From an uncultured Sphingomonas sp. (GTDB taxonomy: Bacteria; Pseudomonadota; Alphaproteobacteria; Sphingomonadales; Sphingomonadaceae), in NCBI RefSeq assembly GCF_902806265.1, contig NZ_CADCVZ010000026.1, positions 1-40,592 on the forward strand: 40,592 nt of DNA, in the 5' to 3' direction. A program made the position numbers and the translations under genes. How positions within the stretch are numbered: the stretch's first letter is position 1; every line of letters begins with the position of its first letter. This document shows, piece by piece, positions 1 to 10,228 of the stretch. The notes beneath the pieces were generated by a model. It made no database searches and had not been told where the DNA came from. It saw only the letters and a program-made list of their open reading frames with translations.

Positions 1-2091
1 CGCCCGCCTGTCGGTGCGGCGCACGGTGGCGCAGCTTGACTTCTTTGACTTCATCAGCGTGGCCGAACTGTCCAACGACCGCGGGTCGCCAAGAAGGGGA
101 TCGCCCGCCTGACCGCGAAGGAAGTCGGAGAAGCCGAAACTCTCAACCGCTCCCGTCTGAGGAGTTCCTCCACTGCCACCTGGCACACCGTCGACATTGT
201 CACTGACCCACACCGGTCCGTTACCACCCCAGATCTCGCTGAGGACACCCCAGTTATAAGTCGAGAAGCGGGCAACGTTCTCCCGGTCCGCATGCCTGAC
301 TCCCGCGCGGATTGAGCTCAGCCAGTCCGTGTTCGGAAAAGCATAATCTACGTCTATCCGCGCCGCATCTTCGTTGCCTTCGCTGTCCTCGATGTGATCC
401 ATCGTGCTGCGGAAGAAGGTATTATACGGATCAGCGAAGCTGCTGTTGCCTTCTCTGAAGTAGCTCGGATCTTGATCCGATGCGCCGCCGACAAGGTCCG
501 TACAAGGACTGTTGACTGCTGGGCCCGAACATACCTCAGGGGGCCGAAACTCGAGGGTCGGAAGATCACCGCCGTTGACGTCAATCAAGGCGTTTTGGAA
601 GCTTGACGTCCATAAGCCCACATCCAGATTTTTGACCCTAGACGCGACATGCTGGTAGTCGAAATTCAGCGTAATCCGGTCGGTTGCGTTCCACTTCAAG
701 TTCGCGCTGATGTCGGTAGTCCGATTGCTCGCGTCGACCTCGCGGGTGATGTTGTTGCTCTGCAAGCCAAGCCGGGGCGTGCGAACGTCGCCGTTGCCAC
801 CCCATGCGGCAGTATTCTGCTGGTCGTCCCGCCACCCGGTCGGACCGGTGATTACGCCATTGTCGAATACGCCGTCGTCGTCAAAGTCCAGCGTCGTACC
901 GGGCACCGCGCGGGAGTCGCCGGCGTCCGTTACATTATCGGTCGCGATTTCAAAGGCGCGCTCGGTCCAGGTCTCGTTTGAGTCCGAACGGAGGAACTGC
1001 AGGGTCGCGAGCATCGAACGATCGTTGCTCCGCCACTGGGCCGCGGCCGAGTAGCCGGTGCGTTTGCGATCCGTGTCCTGCGTGCGCAGCGCAGCGCCGC
1101 GCGGCAGGTAGACACACGAATCTTGGGTCGGTTCGGCCGGAGTGCACTCGGCGTTGCCGATGGGCACCGCGCCCTCCGAGGGGATCACGTCGCCGCTCGT
1201 GTACAGCGTGCGAACGCCATAATTGGAGATCTGGATGCCGTCGCTGCGGAACTTCAGCTTGGACCGGGTGAAGCTGCCAAGCAGGCCGAGCTCGCCGATG
1301 GGGGTTTCCCAGCGGTTGCTGGCAAGAATGGAGAAGGTCGGGCTCCCCTTCTTGCGCATGTCGCCGTAGTTCACCTCGGCGGAACCCGCGACTACCAGCC
1401 GCTTTTCCTGGTCGAACGGGACGCGCGTGCGCAGGTTGACTGTACCGGAGATGCCGCCTTCGACCATGTCGGCAGACGGGCTCTTGAATACATCGACGCC
1501 GCCCAGCAGCTCGGACGGAACGTCGGAGAAGCTCAGGCCGCGTCCGTTGTTGGCAGTAAAGGTATCGCGCCCGTTGAGCTCGCTCCGCGTGTAGGTCAGG
1601 CCACGGACAACAACGCCGCTGCCTTCCGTGGAGAAGTGGTCAGGGTCACTGCCGGCAGCAAAGCGATCGATGGCCACGCCTGGGATGCGCTGCAGCGCTT
1701 CAGTAACCGAGCGATCGGGAAGCGCGCTGATATCCTCGGCGCTGACCGAGTCGACCACCACGTCCGAGTTGCGCTTGATGTCGCGGGAGCGTTGCAGGCT
1801 GCGGCGGATGCCGGTGACGACGATGGTGCCGTCATCCACCGTGTCGTTGGTGGTCGCTTCCTCGACAGGGTCGCTCGGATTGGACGTGATGCCAATGGTC
1901 TCGGAGGCCGCCTGACTGGAGTCCTGGTTCTCGGGCGGGGTCGGGGTTTCCTGCGTGGGGGCGGGAGCCTCCTGAGCAAAGGCAGGCGCCGCCATGAGCA
2001 TGGCCGACATCGCCAGCGCCGATGCGCCGGCCTTGAGGCTGATCGGCGACGTTCCTGCCTGCCGATCCCCTTGCTTTCGTTGTCCGAGCAT
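1..2091 (-). CDS. TonB-dependent receptor, TonB-Xanth-Caul type (C-terminus beyond window)
   Basis: Outer-membrane TonB-dependent transporter, open from the ATG at 2091 to the left edge (697 codons visible), so most of the beta-barrel is outside. A signal peptide with the hydrophobic stretch ALAMSAMLMAAPAFA ends near residue 39. A Pro/Glu/Gln-rich linker follows, then a TonB-box-like TIVVTG at residues 89-94. The plug domain spans about 105-225 and includes SAEDISALPDRSVTEALQRI and GISGTVNLRT. This plug pattern is typical of the large (900-1000 aa) receptors that import glycans or other nutrients in Xanthomonas, Caulobacter and sphingomonads. It is divergent from the halogenase/GH9 operon and carries two LacI-type operators upstream, one between its predicted promoter and start codon. 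Import of an oligosaccharide is inferred from context. The last ~20 visible residues are basic and unremarkable for the family, but the frame stays open. Confidence 0.93.
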   Translation of the reverse strand, partial: MLGQRKQGDRQAGTSPISLKAGASALAMSAMLMAAPAFAQEAPAPTQETPTPPENQDSSQAASETIGITSNPSDPVEEATTNDTVDDGTIVVTGIRRSLQRSRDIKRNSDVVVDSVSAEDISALPDRSVTEALQRIPGVAIDRFAAGSDPDHFSTEGSGVVVRGLTYTRSELNGRDTFTANNGRGLSFSDVPSELLGGVDVFKSPSADMVEGGISGTVNLRTRVPFDQEKRLVVAGSAEVNYGDMRKKGSPTFSILASNRWETPIGELGLLGSFTRSKLKFRSDGIQISNYGVRTLYTSGDVIPSEGAVPIGNAECTPAEPTQDSCVYLPRGAALRTQDTDRKRTGYSAAAQWRSNDRSMLATLQFLRSDSNETWTERAFEIATDNVTDAGDSRAVPGTTLDFDDDGVFDNGVITGPTGWRDDQQNTAAWGGNGDVRTPRLGLQSNNITREVDASNRTTDISANLKWNATDRITLNFDYQHVASRVKNLDVGLWTSSFQNALIDVNGGDLPTLEFRPPEVCSGPAVNSPCTDLVGGASDQDPSYFREGNSSFADPYNTFFRSTMDHIEDSEGNEDAARIDVDYAFPNTDWLSSIRAGVRHADRENVARFSTYNWGVLSEIWGGNGPVWVSDNVDGVPGGSGGTPQTGAVESFGFSDFLRGQAGDPLLGDPRSLDSSATLMKSKKSSCATVRRTDRRA

Positions 2092-2106
2092 CCGATCCCC
2101 TTCCAG

Positions 2107-2120
2107 CGTTAGCGCTAACA
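2107..2120. promoter_or_regulatory. LacI-family operator, site A (receptor/halogenase intergenic)
   Basis: Contains the perfect 12-bp palindrome GTTAGCGCTAAC (2108-2119), with the central CG typical of LacI/GalR-family operators. It lies between the predicted receptor promoter and the receptor ATG. The same core occurs at 14761-14772, upstream of the sugar porter. A related form with a GGT/ACC edge occurs at 25897 and 28555. Confidence 0.72.
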
Positions 2121-2142
2121 GTTGCGCAGCCGCGCCGTTCGT

Positions 2143-2156
2143 TGTTAGCGGTAACT
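2143..2156. promoter_or_regulatory. LacI-family operator, site B (imperfect)
   Basis: TGTTAGCGGTAACT is a one-mismatch version of the TGTTAGCGCTAACA palindrome, centred 36 bp from site A. It overlaps the predicted receptor -10 region and lies about 105 bp upstream of the first halogenase start. It may therefore affect both divergent transcripts. Confidence 0.6.
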
Positions 2157-2182
2157 TGTACGCACCGATGAAACACAATCAA
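2155..2182 (-). promoter_or_regulatory. Predicted sigma70-type promoter of the TonB receptor
   Basis: On the minus strand a -35-like TTGATT (2182-2177) is separated by 16 nt from a -10-like TACAAG (2160-2155). The operator at 2143-2156 begins at the -10 element and covers the expected transcription start, so a bound LacI-family protein would block initiation. The call is made by eye and the -10 match is partial. Confidence 0.4.
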
Positions 2183-2259: not shown

Positions 2260-3777
2260 ATGCCTGTGAAGCCCACGCCTTTGCAGCACATCCTCATCGT
2301 CGGCGGCGGCACCGCCGGATGGATGACGGCTGCTGCACTTGCTCACAAGCTTGCTGGCCTGCCGATCCGAATCAGCCTGGTCGAATCGGAGGAGATCGGG
2401 ACGGTCGGCGTGGGCGAGGCGACGGTTCCGCACATCCGCTTCTTCAATTCCGCGCTCGGCATTGACGAAGCCGAATTCATGCGGACTACCAAGGCCACGT
2501 TCAAGCTTGGCATCGAGTTCCGCAACTGGGGGCGGGTCGGTGACAGCTACATCCATCCTTTCGGTGCGTTCGGCATGGCCGAGGATGGCGTTTCGTTCCT
2601 GCACTGGTGGCTGCGCGCACGCGAGGCTGACGGGAATCATGCCCTGGAGGATTTCTCGCTGCCGGTGCAAGCCGCGCGCCGCAACCGCTTTGGGCCGCCC
2701 TCGCAAGACCCGCGGTCGCTTTACTCGACTTACTCCTATGCCTACCAGTTCGATGCGACGCTTTATGGGCGATTCCTGCGGACGCTCGCCGAGCGGCTGG
2801 GCGTGCAGCGGATCGAGGGACGGATCGTCGACACCGCGCTGGATGGAGCAAGCGGCTTCATCCGGTCGGTAACGCTCGCATCGGGCCAGTCGGTCGAGGC
2901 TGACCTGTTCATGGACTGCTCGGGCTTTCGCGGTCTGCTGATCGAGCAGGCGCTCTCCGCCGGTTACGAAAGCTGGCAGCACTGGTTGCCCTGCGACCGG
3001 GCGATAGCGATGCCGTGCGAAAGCGTGGAGGACTTGACGCCCTACACCCGCGCCACGGCCCTGCAGGCGGGCTGGACCTGGCGCATCCCGCTGCAGCACC
3101 GCGTCGGCAACGGTCATGTCTATGCCAGTGCGTTCATCGACGACGCTGCCGCCGAGCAGGCTTTGCGGGACGGCTTGGAAGGAGCGCCGCTGGCCGAGCC
3201 CAACCGCTTGCGCTTCCTGCCCGGCAAGCGCCGCCGCCAGTGGGTCGGCAACTGCGTGGCGCTGGGCCTGGCAGCGGGCTTCATCGAGCCGCTGGAGTCC
3301 ACCAGCATCCACCTGGTCCAGCTCGCCATTGGCAAGCTGCTCGAATTGTTGCCCTACCGCGGCTGGGATCCGCTGGACGCGGCGGAGTTCAACCGGGCCA
3401 TGGACCTGGAATATGAGCGCGTCCGCGACTTCATCATCCTTCATTATTGCGCCACCCAGCGCGACGACTCGCCCTTGTGGAACCATTGCCGGACGATGAG
3501 CCTGCCCGACAGTCTCGCCCATAAGCTGGAGCTGTTCCGCGAGCGCGGGGTGGTCGTGAACCAGCGTGACGGCATGTTCCTGGAGCCGAGCTGGATCGCC
3601 GTCTACGTCGGGCAGAATATCGTGCCGTGCAGGGTCGATCCGCTTGCCGCATGGATCGAGCTCGACAGGCTGGCGGCCCGTCTGGCGGACATGGCCGGGG
3701 CCTGCCGTCAAGCGGCCGCGGCCATGCCGCTGCATTGCGAGTATCTCCGCTCGATCAACGCTGCGGCCGTCGGATGA
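2260..3777 (+). CDS. Flavin-dependent halogenase (tryptophan halogenase family), copy 1
   Basis: A 505-aa member of the tryptophan halogenase family (PF04820), which uses FADH2, O2 and halide to make hypohalous acid and halogenate electron-rich aromatics. The FAD-binding GGGTAGW is at residues 15-21 and GVGEATVP at about 50-57. The catalytic Lys is K82 in TFKLGIEF (PrnA K79). The signature WTWRIP is at 272-277, and the catalytic Glu is E346 in PLESTS (PrnA E346; the S-T after it lines the halide site). The ATG at 2260 is preferred over the in-frame ATG at 2242 because AGGTGGAG sits directly upstream. It is the first gene of a coupled run of halogenases, GH9 and deacetylase. No signal peptide is seen, so it should be cytoplasmic. 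The substrate cannot be read from sequence; free tryptophan is not assumed, because relatives beside TonB receptors can act on other indoles. Confidence 0.92.
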   Translation: MPVKPTPLQHILIVGGGTAGWMTAAALAHKLAGLPIRISLVESEEIGTVGVGEATVPHIRFFNSALGIDEAEFMRTTKATFKLGIEFRNWGRVGDSYIHPFGAFGMAEDGVSFLHWWLRAREADGNHALEDFSLPVQAARRNRFGPPSQDPRSLYSTYSYAYQFDATLYGRFLRTLAERLGVQRIEGRIVDTALDGASGFIRSVTLASGQSVEADLFMDCSGFRGLLIEQALSAGYESWQHWLPCDRAIAMPCESVEDLTPYTRATALQAGWTWRIPLQHRVGNGHVYASAFIDDAAAEQALRDGLEGAPLAEPNRLRFLPGKRRRQWVGNCVALGLAAGFIEPLESTSIHLVQLAIGKLLELLPYRGWDPLDAAEFNRAMDLEYERVRDFIILHYCATQRDDSPLWNHCRTMSLPDSLAHKLELFRERGVVVNQRDGMFLEPSWIAVYVGQNIVPCRVDPLAAWIELDRLAARLADMAGACRQAAAAMPLHCEYLRSINAAAVG

Positions 3778-5291
3778 CGGCGGAGGTACGGCAGCCCACA
3801 CGCTACGTCATCGCCGGCGGCGGGATCGCGGGGGCGATGGCCGGGGTTGCGGTTGCCACGCGCCTGCCGACCGGAAGCCACAGCGTCACTGTGCTCCGCG
3901 ACGGCGGCGACGCGGACGCCAGCTTCGGCCCGGTCGTCGCCACCCGGCCAGGTATCCGTCGCTTCCACGCCGACCTCGGTGTGGATGAGGATGCGCTGAT
4001 CCGCGGGGGCGCGGCAAGCTTCACCTTGGGCACTGCCTATTCCGGCTGGTCTGCGGTCCGGCCTACTTATTTCCTCCCCTATGGCGATGCGGGCGCCTCC
4101 ATCGAGGGGGTTCCATTCCACCTACTTGCCGCACGCCTCCGCACGGAGGGCGAGAAGGTCGCCTTGGCCGATTATTCGATCGCAGCCATGCTGGCGCAGT
4201 CCGGCCGCTTCGCTCGGCCGTCCGACGATCCGCGCTCGGTCCTATCCACCTTCACTTACGGTCTGCACCTCCACGCCGCGGCCTATGCGGACGCGCTGTT
4301 CGGCCTGGCGCGCCGGCGGGGAGCGACGATCGTGCGGGATGCGCTCGGGTCGGTCGAAGTCGCGAACGGCAGGATCGAGGCCCTGCACCTCGCCCGCGGC
4401 GAGCGGCTGGTGGGTGACGTCTTCATCGATGCGACCGGTGCACGCGGAGCGCTGGCCGGCAGCCTAAGGGGAGCCGACCTCGAGAGCTGCGCCGGCCTGT
4501 TCCCGTTCGACCGAACGGCCTCGGCAGCGATCCGCGCCAGCGCTCCCCCGGCTGCTTACGCGCATGCCGCCGCCCGTAGCGAGGGCTGGCGCCTGACCAT
4601 TCCAGCAGCGGGGATCGTGGGCGAGAGCTTCGCCTACTCATCGCAGCTGTTGTCGCCCGATCAGGCCGAGCGGCTGCTCCTCGCCGATTGCGCGGGCGAC
4701 TTGGTCAGCCCGCCGCGCGATGAGGCCGTGAAGGCGGGCAAACGCGCCCCCTGGAACGGCAATTGCGTGGCGATCGGGGCCGCCGCCGCTGTAGTAGAGC
4801 CGCTTCACTCCATGCCTTTCTCGCTGCTTCAGAATGGAGTTGAGCGGCTGCTTCGCCTACTTCCCGCGAGTATGGAAATGCAGGCGGAAGCGAACGAATA
4901 TAACCGGGCAACGGTCGAGGAGATCGACCGGGCGCGGGACCTTGCGCTGCTGCCGTACCGGCTGAACGGCCGTGCTGGCGAGCAGTCGTGGGACGGCGCG
5001 CGCCAGCCTTCCCGGAACGAGAAGCTTGAACGAAAGATCGATCTCTATCGCAGCCGCGGGCGGGTGCCGCTGCTCGATGGCGACCTGCTCGACGAGGCCG
5101 AATGGGCGGCGTTGTTCGACGGGCATGGCATCACCGCCGCGCGCACGGACGCGCTCGCCGAAGCCATTCCGCTGGAACGCCTGACCAGCCAGCTCGCGCG
5201 CATGCGGCAGGTCATGATCCAGGCGATTTCTCACCTGCCCTCGCACGGCGACTATCTGCGGCAGCTGGCCAGGGGAGCTGCAGCGGCATGA
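3774..5291 (+). CDS. Halogenase paralogue lacking both catalytic residues, copy 2
   Basis: This 505-aa protein aligns along its whole length with the neighbouring halogenases but has lost the reaction centre. The FAD loop is kept as GGGIAG (15-20), with the following Trp changed to Ala. GVGEATVP is replaced by SFGPVVATRPG. The catalytic Lys is T84 in SFTLGTAY, WxWxIP is WRLTIP (272-277), and the PLEST Glu is H345 in PLHSMPF. The frame is intact and codon use matches its neighbours, so it is not a decaying pseudogene. Its start overlaps the previous stop as ATGA (3774-3777) with no clear ribosome site, which suggests translational coupling. It may be a non-halogenating flavoprotein, a partner subunit of the active paralogues or a regulator. 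Automatic annotation would probably call it tryptophan halogenase; I doubt that activity. Confidence 0.85.
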   Translation: MTAEVRQPTRYVIAGGGIAGAMAGVAVATRLPTGSHSVTVLRDGGDADASFGPVVATRPGIRRFHADLGVDEDALIRGGAASFTLGTAYSGWSAVRPTYFLPYGDAGASIEGVPFHLLAARLRTEGEKVALADYSIAAMLAQSGRFARPSDDPRSVLSTFTYGLHLHAAAYADALFGLARRRGATIVRDALGSVEVANGRIEALHLARGERLVGDVFIDATGARGALAGSLRGADLESCAGLFPFDRTASAAIRASAPPAAYAHAAARSEGWRLTIPAAGIVGESFAYSSQLLSPDQAERLLLADCAGDLVSPPRDEAVKAGKRAPWNGNCVAIGAAAAVVEPLHSMPFSLLQNGVERLLRLLPASMEMQAEANEYNRATVEEIDRARDLALLPYRLNGRAGEQSWDGARQPSRNEKLERKIDLYRSRGRVPLLDGDLLDEAEWAALFDGHGITAARTDALAEAIPLERLTSQLARMRQVMIQAISHLPSHGDYLRQLARGAAAA

Positions 5292-6826
5292 GGCAAGGGC
5301 CGATCGAGCGCGTCGTGATCGCCGGCGGCGGCACCGCGGGTTGGATGGCGGCCGCGGCCCTTGCCCGGCTGTGTGCAACCGGCACCAGCGTGACCCTGAT
5401 CGAATCCGAGGAGATCGGCACCATTGGCGTCGGCGAGGCGACCATCCCGCCGATCCGCACCTTCAGTGCGATGGTAGGCATCGACGAAACCGAATTCGTC
5501 CGGCGGACGCAGGCCACCTTCAAGCTGGGGATCGAGTTCGTCGACTGGACCCGCCTCGGCCACCGCTACATGCATCCGTTCGGCCCCTTCGGTGCCGACA
5601 TGGAGGGCGTGAGCTTCCACCAGTTCTGGCTGAAGAGCCGCGCTGCCGGTGAGCGACATGGCTTCGAGGACTTCAACCTCTGCGCGGTGGCAGCCCGCCT
5701 TGGCCGCTTCCAACGTCCATCGCCCGATCCGAAATCGGTACTGTCCAAGTACAAATATGCGTTCCACTTCGACGCAAGTCTCTACGCCGCCTTCCTGCGC
5801 GATCATGCGACCGCACGAGGCGTCGTCCGGCGCGAAGGGAGGATCGTCGATGTAGCCCTGCGCAGCGAGGACGGCTTTGTCGAGGCGCTCCAATTGGAAA
5901 GCGGCGAGCGGATCGAGGGCGACTTGTTCATCGACTGCTCGGGTTCCCGCGCCCTTCTGCTCGGTCAGGCACTCGGCGTCGGCTACGAGGATTGGAGCCG
6001 GTGGCTGCCGTGCGATCGGGCCGTCGCCGTACCGGCCGCTGCCACCGAACCGCCGCTGCCTTACACGCGCGCAACGGCGCTCCCAGCAGGCTGGCAATGG
6101 CGGATCCCTCTGCAGCACCGCGTAGGCACCGGCTACGTTTATTCATCGGCCCACATCAGCGACGATGAGGCGGCTGCGACGGCTTTCGCCAGGCTCAACG
6201 GTGAGCCGCTTGCCGAACCCCGCTTCCTCCGCTTCACCGCTGGACGGCGTGACAGGGTGTGGGAGCGTAACGTGGTTGCGCTGGGTTTGGCGAGCGGCTT
6301 TCTGGAGCCTCTGGAGTCCACCAGCATCCACTTCGTCCAGGCCGGCATCTCCAAGCTGCTGGCGCTGTTTCCGGACCGGCGGTTCGACCCGGTGCTGGCG
6401 GACGAGTACAACCGGCTGACCGCCCTGCAGCTGGAGCAGGTCCGCGATTTCATTATCCTCCACTATAAGGCCACCGAGCGCCGCGACAGCGAGTTTTGGC
6501 GCGCCGCGGCGAACATGGCGGTGCCCGACAGCCTCGCCCGCAAGATCGCGTTGTTCCGCGAGAACGGCCGGGTGTTCCGCCACGAGGACGAGCTGTTCAG
6601 CGAGGCGAGCTGGTTGGCCGTGCTGCTCGGCCAGGGGATCGTGCCCCGCCGCTGGGATCCGCTCGCAGACGCACTGCCGAATGAAGAGGTGCGCGCAACG
6701 CTGGGCCGGATGGCGCCGTTCATCCGGCGGGCGGCCGAGTCCATGCCGGCTCACCAGAACTATCTCGCGCAGGTGGCCGGATCGCGCCCGGCCGGCGTGA
6801 CCACCAGATGGAGGAGCATGAGTTGA
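5288..6826 (+). CDS. Flavin-dependent halogenase (tryptophan halogenase family), copy 3
   Basis: A 512-aa halogenase with all family landmarks: GGGTAGW (13-19), GVGEATIP (about 47-54), catalytic K79 in TFKLGIEF, WQWRIP (269-274), and catalytic E343 in PLESTS. The start ATG overlaps the stop of copy 2 (ATGA, 5288-5291). AGGGGAG lies about 11 nt upstream, so both coupling and independent initiation are possible. FADH2 must come from a separate flavin reductase, and none is encoded in the window. Compared with copy 1, the substrate-side segment after residue 420 differs (for example ERRDSEFWRAAANM against QRDDSPLWNHCRTM). This could mean a different substrate. A predicted cytoplasmic enzyme. Confidence 0.92.
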   Translation: MRQGPIERVVIAGGGTAGWMAAAALARLCATGTSVTLIESEEIGTIGVGEATIPPIRTFSAMVGIDETEFVRRTQATFKLGIEFVDWTRLGHRYMHPFGPFGADMEGVSFHQFWLKSRAAGERHGFEDFNLCAVAARLGRFQRPSPDPKSVLSKYKYAFHFDASLYAAFLRDHATARGVVRREGRIVDVALRSEDGFVEALQLESGERIEGDLFIDCSGSRALLLGQALGVGYEDWSRWLPCDRAVAVPAAATEPPLPYTRATALPAGWQWRIPLQHRVGTGYVYSSAHISDDEAAATAFARLNGEPLAEPRFLRFTAGRRDRVWERNVVALGLASGFLEPLESTSIHFVQAGISKLLALFPDRRFDPVLADEYNRLTALQLEQVRDFIILHYKATERRDSEFWRAAANMAVPDSLARKIALFRENGRVFRHEDELFSEASWLAVLLGQGIVPRRWDPLADALPNEEVRATLGRMAPFIRRAAESMPAHQNYLAQVAGSRPAGVTTRWRSMS

Positions 6827-8382
6827 CCGACCAGCGTATCCGCAGCGTGCTCATCGTCGGCGGCGGAACCGCAGGCTGGATGGCCGCCGCGACCTTGGCC
6901 AAGATCCTGACCAACCGTTATTGTTCGATCACCCTGATCGAGTCCGACGAGATCGGCATCATCGGCGTCGGTGAAGCCACCATCCCGCAGATGGCGACCT
7001 TCAACCGCATGCTGGAGATCGACGAGGACGACTTCGTCCGCCGCACCAACGGCACGTTCAAGCTCGGCATCCAGTTCGTGAACTGGGGGCGCCAGGGTCA
7101 CGTCTACTTCCACCCGTTCGGCTCCTACGGGCTCAACATGCAGGGCGTGTCGTTCCACTCGCACTGGCTGCGACTGCACCAGGCGGGCGAAGCGCCGCGC
7201 CTCGACGAATGGTCCCTGCCGGCCCTAGCGGGCGAGCGCGGCAAGTTCATGCGGCCGTTCGACGCCGGTAATTCGCCGCTGTCGCAGATCGCCTACGCCT
7301 ACCATTTCGATGCCGGGCTCTACGCCCGATACCTGCGGGAATATGCGACCAGCCGCGGCGTCGTCCGGCAGGAGGGCAAGATCGTCGACGTGACACTACG
7401 GGGCGAAGACGGGTTCGTGGAGTCCGTCACTTTGCAGGACGGGCGCAGGATCGAGGCCGACCTGTTCATCGACTGCTCCGGCTTTCGCGGCCTGCTGATC
7501 GAACAGGCGCTGAAGAGCGGATACGAAGACTGGTCGCACTACCTGCCGTGCAACCGCGCGATCGCCGTGCCGTGCGAGAGCGTCGAGGAGATTACGCCCT
7601 ATACCCGGTCCACCGCCCATACTGCCGGCTGGCAATGGCGCATCCCGCTGCAGCATCGGATCGGCAACGGCCATGTGTTCTGCAGCGACTTCATGAGCGA
7701 TGACGAGGCTGCCGACATCCTCATGAGCAACCTCGACGGCAAGCCGCTCGCCGAGCCGCGGGTGGTGCCGTTCAAGACCGGACGCCGGCGGCAGAGCTGG
7801 ATCAAGAATTGCGTATCGCTTGGGCTTGCGGCGGGGTTCCTCGAGCCGCTTGAGTCGACCAGCATCTGGCTGGTGCAGAGCGGCCTGTCCCGGCTGATGG
7901 CCATGTTCCCCGACCGCACCTTCCAGCAGGCCGAGATCGACCGCTACAACCGCACCGTCGCCTATGAATATGAGATCGTACGAGAGTTCCTGGTGCTCCA
8001 CTATCACGTCACGCAGCGGGATGATTCTCCCTTCTGGGACTATTGCCGCAACATGCCGATCCCCGAGCGCCTCGCCGAGAAGATGCGGGTGTACGAGGCG
8101 TATGGCCGCACCTTCCGCGAAAATGACGAGCTGTTCAACGACACCAGCTGGTTCGCGGTCATGGTGGGCCAGCTGATGCAGGCGCGCACCTACGATCCCG
8201 TTGCTGACATCATGCCGCTCGACGAGACGCGGCGCCGTCTGCAGCACATCGCGGAGGCAGTTGGGAACAGCGCCAACTACATGCCGACGCACAAGCAATT
8301 CATTCTCGACAACTGCGCGGCTCCTGAGATGGTTGCGGCCAGCAAGGCGGCAGCGCCCGAGCGCGCAGTCCGGTTCGGCTGA
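6823..8382 (+). CDS. Flavin-dependent halogenase (tryptophan halogenase family), copy 4
   Basis: An intact halogenase with GGGTAGW (13-19), GVGEATIP, catalytic K80 in TFKLGIQF, WQWRIP (270-275) and catalytic E344 in PLESTS. I place the start at TTG 6823 because GGAGGAG lies 6 nt upstream. This gives the same N-terminal length as copy 3 and a 4-nt overlap (TTGA) with its stop, like the other junctions. ATG 6808 is the alternative and adds five residues, but it has no ribosome site. The protein is 519 aa, with a slightly longer Ala/Pro-rich tail than its paralogues. GH9 follows after 19 nt. Confidence 0.91.
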   Translation: MTDQRIRSVLIVGGGTAGWMAAATLAKILTNRYCSITLIESDEIGIIGVGEATIPQMATFNRMLEIDEDDFVRRTNGTFKLGIQFVNWGRQGHVYFHPFGSYGLNMQGVSFHSHWLRLHQAGEAPRLDEWSLPALAGERGKFMRPFDAGNSPLSQIAYAYHFDAGLYARYLREYATSRGVVRQEGKIVDVTLRGEDGFVESVTLQDGRRIEADLFIDCSGFRGLLIEQALKSGYEDWSHYLPCNRAIAVPCESVEEITPYTRSTAHTAGWQWRIPLQHRIGNGHVFCSDFMSDDEAADILMSNLDGKPLAEPRVVPFKTGRRRQSWIKNCVSLGLAAGFLEPLESTSIWLVQSGLSRLMAMFPDRTFQQAEIDRYNRTVAYEYEIVREFLVLHYHVTQRDDSPFWDYCRNMPIPERLAEKMRVYEAYGRTFRENDELFNDTSWFAVMVGQLMQARTYDPVADIMPLDETRRRLQHIAEAVGNSANYMPTHKQFILDNCAAPEMVAASKAAAPERAVRFG

Positions 8383-8401: not shown

Positions 8402-10228
8402 ATGATCCGATCGAGCTGGCTCCTCAGCGCCGCGGCGCTTGCCGCCTTTTCTTCAGCCGGCGCTGCGGAAGTCGCGCCTGTGCGACTCAATCAGGTCGGC
8501 ATCCTCGTCGGCGGTCCCAAGCGCGCAGTGGTGCCGAACGCCGGCAAGCAGCCGCTCGCCTGGTCTCTGATGGATTTCGACGGCCGGGTGCTCGCAACCG
8601 GTCGCACCACCGTCTTCGGCCAGGACCGTTGGTCGGGCGAGCATGTCCACCGGGTCGACTTCAGCCGCTATCGCCAGCCGGGCAAGGCGCTGTTCTTGCG
8701 CGTCGGCGCTGCCGCTAGCCGTCCGTTCGACATCTCGGCCGCGCCCTACCCGCGCCTGCCTTACGATGCGCTCGCCTATTTCTACCACAATCGCGCGGGC
8801 ACGCCGATCGAGGCGAGCTTGGTCGGACAGCGCTGGGCCCGGCCGGCGGGCCACCCGAACGAGCGGGCGACCTGCGTTAGCGGCACCGACAGCAAGGGTA
8901 ATGTCTGGCCCGGCTGTCCTTACACGCTGGAGGTGAGCGGCGGCTGGTACGACGCCGGCGACCACGGGAAATATGTGGTGAACGCGGGCATCTCGCTGTG
9001 GACGTTGCTCAACCTTCACGAGCGACTGACCGCCTCGGGCTCGAGGCTGTTTGCCGACGGCACCGCTGCAATTCCCGAGCGCGGCAATGGCCTGTCCGAC
9101 CTGCTGGACGAGGCACGCTGGCAGATGGACTTCCTGCTCAAGATGCAGGTGCCCGAGGGCACGCGGCTGCGGGTGCCGGCGGGAGCCAAGGAGACCGTTC
9201 CCGGCCTGACCTTTAGCGAGATCGACGCGTCCGGGATGGCGCATCACAAGCTGGCGGACGAGAAGTGGACCTCGCTCCCCATGCGCCCGGACCAGGACCC
9301 GGAGAAGCGCCAGCTGTTCCCGCCGACCACCGCGGCGACGCTCAACCTGGCCGCGAACGCCGCGCAATGCGCGCGGGTCTGGCGCCAAGTCGACTCGGCT
9401 TATGCCGACCGCTGCCTCCGTGGCGCCGAGCGCGCCTGGGCGGCCGCGGTGCGCAACCCGCAAGTCTATGCGCTGGCGGACTTCACCGGCAGCGGCGCGT
9501 ATGGCGATGACGAGCTCGGCGACGAGTTCTACTGGGCCGCCGCCGAGCTGTTCGCCACTACCGGCGAGGCACCGTACCGAGCCGCGCTGCAGCGTTCGCC
9601 GCACTTCCGGACGGTCGCGGGCGAGCCCGGTTGGGGAAGTGTCGCGCCGCTGGGCACCGTCACGCTGGCGAGTTTTCCCAATTCGCTGCCGAACGGAGAA
9701 GCGCGGCGGCTCCGGCAGGCCGTCCAGTCGGCGGCCGACCGCTTCCTCGCCGAGCGCGAGCGGACCGGCTACCTCGTTCCCCATGCCGGCAACACGGTCT
9801 GGGGGTCGAACTCGAACCTGCTCAACCGGGCCATGCTGCTGGGGTTGGCCTACGACTTCAGCGGTCAGGACCGCTACCGGTCGGGCGTGATCGACGCGAT
9901 GGATTACGTCCTCGGCCGCAACCCGCTCGATCGCTCCTACGTGACCGGCTACGGCGCGCGGCCGATGGTGAATCCGCACCATCGGTTCTGGGCCAACTCG
10001 CTCGATCCGCGCTTCCCGCCGCCGCCGCGCGGGGCGCTGTCCGGCGGGCCGAACAACACGGCAATGACTGACGAGGTCGCAGCGACGCTCAGGGGCAAGT
10101 GCGCGGCGCAGGCCTGCTGGCTCGACGACGCCCGGGCCTACAGCCTCAACGAAGTTGCAATCAATTGGAACGCACCGCTGGTGTGGGTCTCCGCGTGGCT
10201 GGCTGAACGCCCGGGCGAGCGCAAGTGA
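8402..10228 (+). CDS. Secreted GH9 glycoside hydrolase (endoglucanase/cellodextrinase type)
   Basis: A 608-aa enzyme with a signal peptide (residues 1-21, ending SSAGAA) and an N-terminal immunoglobulin-like CelD_N domain (about 25-112). The GH9 (alpha/alpha)6 catalytic domain runs from about 118 to 600. GGWYDAGDHGKY (180-191) carries the two Asp of the DAGD motif (D184, D187). The first GH9 signature YVTGYGARPMVNPHHR ends at R528. The second includes SLNEVAINWNAP, with catalytic acid E584. GH9 enzymes invert beta-1,4 bonds in cellulose, mixed-linkage glucan, xyloglucan backbone or cello-oligomers, and a few act on chitosan oligomers. Polymer preference is not decidable here. No carbohydrate-binding module is seen. 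The ribosome site AAGGAAA precedes the ATG. It is fifth in the halogenase operon and overlaps the next gene as GTGA. Confidence 0.92.
   Translation: MIRSSWLLSAAALAAFSSAGAAEVAPVRLNQVGILVGGPKRAVVPNAGKQPLAWSLMDFDGRVLATGRTTVFGQDRWSGEHVHRVDFSRYRQPGKALFLRVGAAASRPFDISAAPYPRLPYDALAYFYHNRAGTPIEASLVGQRWARPAGHPNERATCVSGTDSKGNVWPGCPYTLEVSGGWYDAGDHGKYVVNAGISLWTLLNLHERLTASGSRLFADGTAAIPERGNGLSDLLDEARWQMDFLLKMQVPEGTRLRVPAGAKETVPGLTFSEIDASGMAHHKLADEKWTSLPMRPDQDPEKRQLFPPTTAATLNLAANAAQCARVWRQVDSAYADRCLRGAERAWAAAVRNPQVYALADFTGSGAYGDDELGDEFYWAAAELFATTGEAPYRAALQRSPHFRTVAGEPGWGSVAPLGTVTLASFPNSLPNGEARRLRQAVQSAADRFLAERERTGYLVPHAGNTVWGSNSNLLNRAMLLGLAYDFSGQDRYRSGVIDAMDYVLGRNPLDRSYVTGYGARPMVNPHHRFWANSLDPRFPPPPRGALSGGPNNTAMTDEVAATLRGKCAAQACWLDDARAYSLNEVAINWNAPLVWVSAWLAERPGERK

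Follow-up and report, generated by a model that had tools for sequence, protein, structure and literature searches.

A pseudo-halogenase gene placed directly behind one clade of flavin-dependent halogenases in Sphingomonas and its relatives

What can a halogenase contribute to its locus once its catalytic residues are gone? PrnA, RebH, PyrH and Thal are understood to be active enzymes with a catalytic Lys and Glu, and BrvH residues K83 and E349 have been equated by the authors with the catalytic Lys and Glu of RebH; the K83A substitution fully abolished BrvH activity, and the WxWxIP motif was suggested to stop halogenases from acting as monooxygenases (PMC5945002; papers are cited here for the parts of their text that were available). 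We describe a member of this family, W2, in which these features are missing. It is the second of four tandem PF04820 genes (W1–W4, the copies in slots 1–4) that diverge from a minus-strand TonB-dependent receptor gene on contig NZ_CADCVZ010000026.1 of an uncultured Sphingomonas sp. This entire contig, 40592 bases long and part of a 2.33 Mb assembly with eight PF04820 genes, is the window, that is, the whole stretch of DNA that was analysed. We conclude that halogenase and pseudo-halogenase almost certainly form a selected two-gene module.

TldD and TldE exemplify an active and an inactive paralogue that work as a pair; a W1–W2 complex, which is proposed here, would likewise join an active to an inactive paralogue. 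The halogenase StaI of the A47934 cluster is reportedly active, going by the title of one study. The A47934 glycopeptide-antibiotic cluster of Streptomyces toyocaensis also holds StaK, a named inactive halogenase (PMC11727664), which resembles W2 as an inactive family member by description rather than by sequence comparison. Unlike W2, StaK lies in a glycopeptide-antibiotic cluster and in one clade with a single other sequence, and the available text reports no adjacency or selection test (PMC11727664). The literature that we searched, mostly without subscription papers, yielded no paper on a flavin-dependent halogenase as a pseudoenzyme. Nor did it yield a halogenase complex with a dead paralogue as subunit, a paper on a tryptophan halogenase with glycoside hydrolase and TonB or, among the matches listed, any case of an inactive copy regularly paired with a single clade of halogenases. 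The available texts of PMC1790865 (CUT loci) and PMC7142613 (sphingomonad transporters) do not mention a halogenase, and the heterodimer of PMC12424672 is a protease. An inactive halogenase as such has precedent in StaK; what is new, within the searched literature, is the conserved, clade-specific pairing.

How far has W2 departed from a working halogenase? It is a single open frame of 505 aa without a stop and scores 297.9 bits against Pfam PF04820 (cut-off 21). Its AlphaFold2 model (predicted local distance difference test score, pLDDT, 90.4; predicted template modeling score, pTM, 0.90) has BrvH as best structural match (template modeling score, TM, 0.91); the underlying alignment had 26 rows, mostly of intact relatives, so the model speaks for compatibility with the fold and does not prove it. 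BrvH (6frl), Xcc4156 (6y1w) and 9luq are like W2 in family and fold (TM 0.90–0.91; 28–33% identity), and PrnA, RebH, PyrH and Thal share the fold as well (TM 0.85–0.88; about 21–26% identity to W2). The BrvH-type catalytic motifs are all present in W1, W3 and W4, each of which keeps GGGTAG, GVGEATxP, the Lys, WxWxIP and EPLEST, in agreement with a preliminary description of this DNA that had called these three copies intact. W2 differs from the BrvH-type enzymes in having neither catalytic residue (Lys or Glu), no GVGEATxP and only the first Trp of WxWxIP. A phmmer alignment lays W2 ASFTLG onto BrvH ATCKLG and W2 VEPLHSMPF onto LEPLESTSI, and the alignment with W1 sets T84 opposite K82 and H345 opposite E346. 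Both alignments bear out the residue numbers of the preliminary description, which had placed Thr84 and His345 at the catalytic positions. The PrnA equivalents are presumably K79 and E346, the residue-level alignments being those to BrvH and W1. Likewise, GPVVATRP stands for GVGEATVP, WRLTIP for WxWxIP and EPLHSM for EPLEST, so the two motif losses described earlier are real. The flavin adenine dinucleotide (FAD) module GxGxxG is present as GGGIAG, D219 and G222 are also retained, and the full length, intact frame and start/stop coupling ascribed to this copy hold good, with ATGA overlaps at the W1/W2 junction and at the W2/W3 junction (5288–5291). Because both catalytic columns are lost and BrvH K83A is inactive, we read W2 as unable to halogenate; it is very probably catalytically dead as a halogenase.

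If the loss were a local accident, W2 would have few counterparts. The preliminary description had proposed a search for orthologues in the same slot. A first search of 100 relatives, 63 with a match, found a disabled copy in three genomes of the same genus (46, 46 and 38% identity to W2), in each case as gene 2 of a four-gene array. Here "disabled" denotes a PF04820 gene without both Lys and Glu together. Twenty stretches were chosen for their score against W2 or a disabled-copy profile, or for a tandem array, and in 19 of the 20 a slot-1-type intact gene is followed directly by a disabled gene. Because these stretches had been chosen partly for the disabled gene, a second survey was made with a slot-1 profile built from 22 intact proteins. 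At least 218 of 396 genomes of the order had a match at E 1e-200 or better, as did at least 29 of 349 genomes of the phylum, some genomes being common to both sets; the best 3–4 candidates per genome, among the matches listed, were scored. Eighty regions were taken: 68 came from the top of the order list, skipping G419 and matches inside stretches already taken, and a further 12 were selected from the phylum list. The pair is present in 63 of the 80, all from genomes not used for the profile; in L250, L253 and L256 the pair sits next to the central gene. The remaining 17, one of them L248, have a central gene scoring −4 bits or less (slot-1 minus family profile), as genes of other clades do.

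Across the 105 stretches, 87 intact genes score as slot 1, that is, at least 10 bits above the family profile, a cut fixed after the scores had been seen; 86 remain once L248, which overlaps L194, is excluded. All are directly followed on the same strand by a disabled PF04820 gene. By comparison, such a follower seems to be present behind only one of 162 other intact genes, counted without removing overlaps, and this case (L235) is an artefact of a frameshifted, split intact gene, which was not scored as disabled; nine of the 162 lie too near a stretch end to be judged. Intact genes shorter than about 1350–1400 bases were excluded from counts and tree, and one stretch (L100) begins with a disabled copy whose upstream gene falls outside it. 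With the duplicate set aside, paired genes score at least 17 bits and unpaired genes −4 or less. BrvH, Xcc4156 and 9luq reach 625–652 bits on the slot-1 profile against 668–877 for slot-1 genes, and none looks like slot 1. The same division appears in a FastTree phylogeny of 246 intact proteins, from which the disabled genes were left out and which does not use the score cut: the 86 paired proteins fall on one side of one branch (support 99), and the pairing label needs 1 change against a shuffled mean of 71. In a 103-protein tree, 22 slot-1 genes are set apart by one branch and 24 disabled genes by a second, each with a Shimodaira–Hasegawa-like approximate likelihood ratio (SH-aLRT) of 100. 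We do not take the latter (24 of 24) as establishing a single origin of the disabled copies, since their branches are long and may attract one another; the argument from the conserved slot carries more weight.

The 86 pairs come from 82 sources and 25 genus codes plus one member of the Maricaulaceae (L040). The window's family accounts for 77 of them, plus the window itself, and four are from other classes of the phylum, probably gammaproteobacteria. In 74 of 86 cases the stop of the slot-1 gene and the start of the disabled gene overlap by exactly 4 bases (ATGA 50, GTGA 22, TTGA 2), and 35 of 49 junctions between disabled copy and slot 3 are also 4-base overlaps. For 37 of the 86 pairs there is no halogenase directly downstream: 2 lie at a stretch edge, 28 have a halogenase elsewhere in the stretch and 7 have none (for example, L219, L238, L246 and L264). 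Pairs without any other halogenase in the stretch point to W1, rather than the other copies, as the companion of W2. Since the pair persists without a halogenase behind it and other clades have no disabled follower, the earlier picture of a dead copy among three intact paralogues can be sharpened: the constant companion of the disabled copy is copy 1. Strict genetic pairing with one active paralogue, as expected of a two-subunit enzyme with a dead paralogue, is thus what the arrays display.

Are the disabled genes maintained? All 86 are one uninterrupted stop-to-stop frame, the copy in L205 being cut by its contig end. The ratio of nonsynonymous to synonymous substitution (dN/dS), calculated with our own NG86 script for the 16 closest of 3655 pairs, is 0.05–0.28 for the disabled genes and 0.04–0.22 for slot 1; these comparisons draw repeatedly on 16 loci and cannot count as independent. 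The preliminary description had named a dN/dS near 1 as an outcome that would undo its proposal, and the values are far below this. The disabled genes are therefore under purifying selection, which is weaker than that on the enzyme; with catalytic residues lost across orthologues and the genes kept by selection, they have the marks of pseudoenzymes. These data bear on the possibility that W2 is no more than a pseudogene in decay, or serves just to relay ribosomes to the genes downstream. High divergence, copies shortened to about 340–380 aa and the frequent overlap with slot 3 would suit such a gene, but the low dN/dS, the 86 uninterrupted frames, the 37 pairs with no halogenase directly downstream and the recurrence of the slot in 25 genus codes make it highly unlikely. 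The shortened in-frame copies beside a slot-1 gene, 340–381 aa long, are those of L129 (12789–13931), L189 (4979–5998), L190–L193, L195 and L200.

What has been kept and what has been lost distinguishes further explanations. At the former Lys site the 86 disabled copies have no Lys: Arg is the commonest state (45), followed by Ser (11), Ala (6), Val (5), others (15) and gaps (4). The catalytic Glu is still present in 11 of the 86 (7 are gapped). Could W2 still halogenate, with Thr and His or other residues replacing Lys and Glu? Retention of the fold and, in W2, of the FAD loop would allow it, as would the surviving Glu and the many Arg residues among its orthologues; given a Lys in none of 86 copies, EPLHSM in place of EPLEST and the dead BrvH K83A mutant (PMC5945002), we regard continued halogenation as very improbable.

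A flavoenzyme with other chemistry, such as an oxidase or monooxygenase using new residues, finds some support in W2 itself, for GGGIAG, D219 and G222 are retained, and the motif suggested to prevent monooxygenase activity, WxWxIP, is partly lost (PMC5945002). It fits the orthologues poorly. GxGxxG is visible in 46 of 86 disabled copies versus 85 of 86 slot-1 proteins (of the 40 without it, 5 are gapped there), and the former Lys site is highly variable. Only 10 columns have a consensus of at least 70% that differs from slot 1; one is acidic, a conservative Asp to Glu change at 372, and there is no obvious new catalytic set among the 10. We consider such an enzyme improbable. The preliminary description had proposed a selected non-halogenating role, which the slot and the dN/dS values support; its suggestion of a flavin carrier or new flavin chemistry is weakened as a general role, because 40 of 86 copies show no GxGxxG and the loops for FAD and halide belong to the parts that are kept least. 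Slot 1 has 129 sites that are at least 95% invariant. Of these, 32 are retained in 70% or more of the disabled copies (W2 keeps 64), and retention averages 0.25 over the 24 sites of the flavin and halide loops, WxWxIP and the catalytic pair versus 0.46 over the other 105 (Mann-Whitney p = 0.003, for sites chosen by the analyst, of which neighbouring ones are not independent). Relative to slot 1, conservation is most relaxed in the FAD switch loop (W2 41–60; 0.39) and in 261–320 (0.44–0.48), and best held in 361–380, 421–440 and 141–160 (0.80–0.85).

The same pattern could describe a stand-alone ligand binder in the same pathway that makes no contact with W1, be it a sensor or a holder or carrier of the halogenase substrate or product. 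The fold is retained in W2 while the flavin and halide loops decay, fast divergence (median pairwise identity 26%) fits a changing ligand, and the setting among TonB receptor and glycoside hydrolase genes is in keeping with it. However, nothing in such a role calls for a fixed halogenase neighbour, yet all 86 copies stand next to members of a single clade, and the 261–320 region that holds WxWxIP is among the most relaxed. We judge a stand-alone binder unlikely.

We propose instead that W2 is a paralogue of tryptophan-type, flavin-dependent halogenases that would have given up halogenation chemistry and been retained as a dedicated partner of W1. Adjacency to one clade, gene overlap, purifying selection and loss of catalysis together lead us to a non-catalytic partner, and we favor, with modest confidence, a physical subunit or regulator of W1. 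Since the genes overlap stop to start, W1 and W2 are probably translated together. Crystals of many family members contain one and the same type of dimer (PMC7336383, PMC11840605); we therefore guess that W2 may take one place in the W1 dimer, replacing the second W1 protomer. There it might tune W1 through stability, flavin or substrate access, or inhibition, and the pair would work in a TonB-receptor/polysaccharide-utilization locus. The physical binding, its effect and the substrate are the parts of this proposal that we infer. More tentatively, at somewhat below even odds, one branch of bacterial flavin-dependent halogenases, built into such loci, may work as an obligate heteromer of a catalytic subunit and a rapidly evolving pseudo-halogenase. 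The module itself is best read as old and as set in TonB-receptor/polysaccharide loci.

Several observations weigh against a dedicated partner of W1. Disabled copies have a median pairwise identity of 26%, slot-1 proteins 54%, and so fast a divergence is odd for a conserved, static interface. In 15 of the 16 close comparisons dN/dS is higher for the disabled gene than for slot 1. Within the C-terminal half, W2 381–420 is also relaxed (ratio 0.48–0.50), and the diverged partner of L040 folds only partly, with a mean pLDDT of 74.7 and long central stretches below 50. For some members of the family the solution state appears to be a monomer (PMC7336383, PMC11840605). Coevolution does not single out W1 either: the identities of disabled and slot-1 proteins correlate at 0.90 over 86 arrays, and in the 49 arrays with a slot 3 the disabled copy correlates at 0.77 with slot 1 and at 0.75 with slot 3 (partial correlations 0.43 vs 0.39), so we rejected the mirror-tree as evidence for a W1 partner. 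Finally, two distant loci depart from the rule. L272 has a slot-1-like gene without a partner, and the follower at L296:7494–9029 keeps the Lys (ASFKLG), with Gln for the catalytic Glu (IDPLQVESM) and an FAD loop reading GGNTTG.

The gene ahead of the L296 follower has no clear slot-1 score, and the follower is possibly an intermediate. Other intermediates, in L115–L118, have GPGEATLP or a near variant; together with L296 they trace, in graded steps, how an enzyme becomes a non-enzyme. Outside the window's class, 33 of 177 genomes had a match, and the tree was extended to 288 rows. Four stretches there (L250, L251, L253 and L256) obey the rule with strongly diverged partners. On the 288-row tree the pairing label needs 4 changes; as far as could be told, these involve L288, the pair L269/L272 and another type of intact halogenase, and the change at L288 is probably an edge artefact, a truncated gene at the locus end that was wrongly labelled. 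Because of these changes, we claim the slot-1 rule for the main clade and not for every distant relative. Beyond the 86 counted pairs, L297:5950–9002 has another slot-1-like gene with a disabled follower (GRDAPL / GAFSLG / LDPIHTLDL). Genomes of another class have a different tandem, in which a GVGEATxP-type halogenase precedes one of GVGEGSTP / EPLEATAL type; Lys and Glu are kept in both (Table 1).

In the window, W4 is followed by genes for GH9, a polysaccharide deacetylase and GH3, and farther on by sugar transporters, a second GH3, GH43 and an M28 peptidase. The region 8402–32129 as a whole resembles a plant-polysaccharide set (GH9, deacetylase, two GH3, GH43, SASA-type acetylesterase, M28 peptidase), with major facilitator superfamily (MFS) sugar transporters and an IlvD/Edd-type dehydratase. 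Over the 86 pairs, a TonB receptor lies within 1.5 kb upstream in 41 (35 divergent, 6 on the same strand), as judged from short flanks and a single-receptor query; the receptor is thus a common neighbour rather than a demonstrably universal one. Relatives of the window's GH9 occur in 15 of the 86 stretches and of its GH3 in 20. A clustering of neighbouring open reading frames (ORFs) was dropped, as antisense ORFs in high-GC DNA spoilt the clusters. In L223 a cupin-like (Cupin_8) gene (9005–10015, minus strand) lies between the pair and a convergent pair of intact halogenases, and other stretches have a similar gap of about 1 kb.

Table 1. Coordinates of the principal features, in the window unless a locus is named
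Feature	Position	Strand	Basis and remarks
TonB-dependent receptor, Plug domain	1..2178	-	Pfam PF07715; divergent gene, extends past contig end
W1, intact halogenase of the slot-1 clade, proposed partner of W2	2260..3777	+	K82 and E346 present
W2, pseudo-halogenase, 505 aa	3774..5291	+	PF04820; Thr84 for catalytic Lys, His345 for catalytic Glu
ATGA stop/start overlap of W1 and W2	3774..3777	+	Sequence; likely translational coupling
W3, intact halogenase, slot 3	5288..6826	+	PF04820, motifs; ATGA overlap with W2; start codon chosen by analyst
W4, intact halogenase, slot 4	6808..8382	+	PF04820, motifs
GH9 family glycoside hydrolase, 3' of the array	8402..10228	+	PF00759 and PF02927
Tandem of GVGEATxP-type and GVGEGSTP-type halogenases	L294:10059-13070, L295:2255-5269, L298:5875-8994, L299:402-3444, L300:5989-8997		

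The arrangement also occurs on plasmids, as seen in two named examples among five regions inspected, out of 24 plasmid records matching W2. Plasmid NZ_CP025614.1 of Niveispirillum cyanobacteriorum carries a TonB receptor, a halogenase, the disabled copy WP_102115330.1 (L305:7412–8845; GGFSLG / LDPVGGVAL) and two intact halogenases, as well as a toxin-antitoxin pair, an M28 peptidase, two GH43 genes and a GH9 gene; receptor, array, GH9, GH43 and M28 genes are common to it and the window. Similarly, plasmid NZ_CP155753.1 of Sphingomonas parapaucimobilis carries a TonB receptor, a halogenase, the disabled copy WP_347093120.1 (L308:8434–9903; AGYRLG / VEPLEWCNL), two shorter annotated halogenase pieces, GH9 and GH1. 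Halogenase and disabled copy overlap by 4 bases on both plasmids. No disabled copy was seen among the annotated halogenases of the other three inspected regions. WP_102115330.1 is annotated as "tryptophan 7-halogenase"; in the two examples, disabled copies go under this name or under "tryptophan halogenase family protein", which is probably misleading. Genome mining for biocatalysts can thus take in proteins that probably cannot halogenate.

Finally, the pairing offers a simple genomic marker for the slot-1 clade. What BrvH and three Xanthomonas campestris halogenases act on in nature has been reported as unknown (PMC7336383). Were one clade normally produced along with a dead sister protein, assays of its proteins one at a time would overlook half of the machine. 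Should the heteromer prove true, assays of the catalytic protein by itself would lack the native partner, which could help to explain why natural substrates are still unknown for this part of the family.

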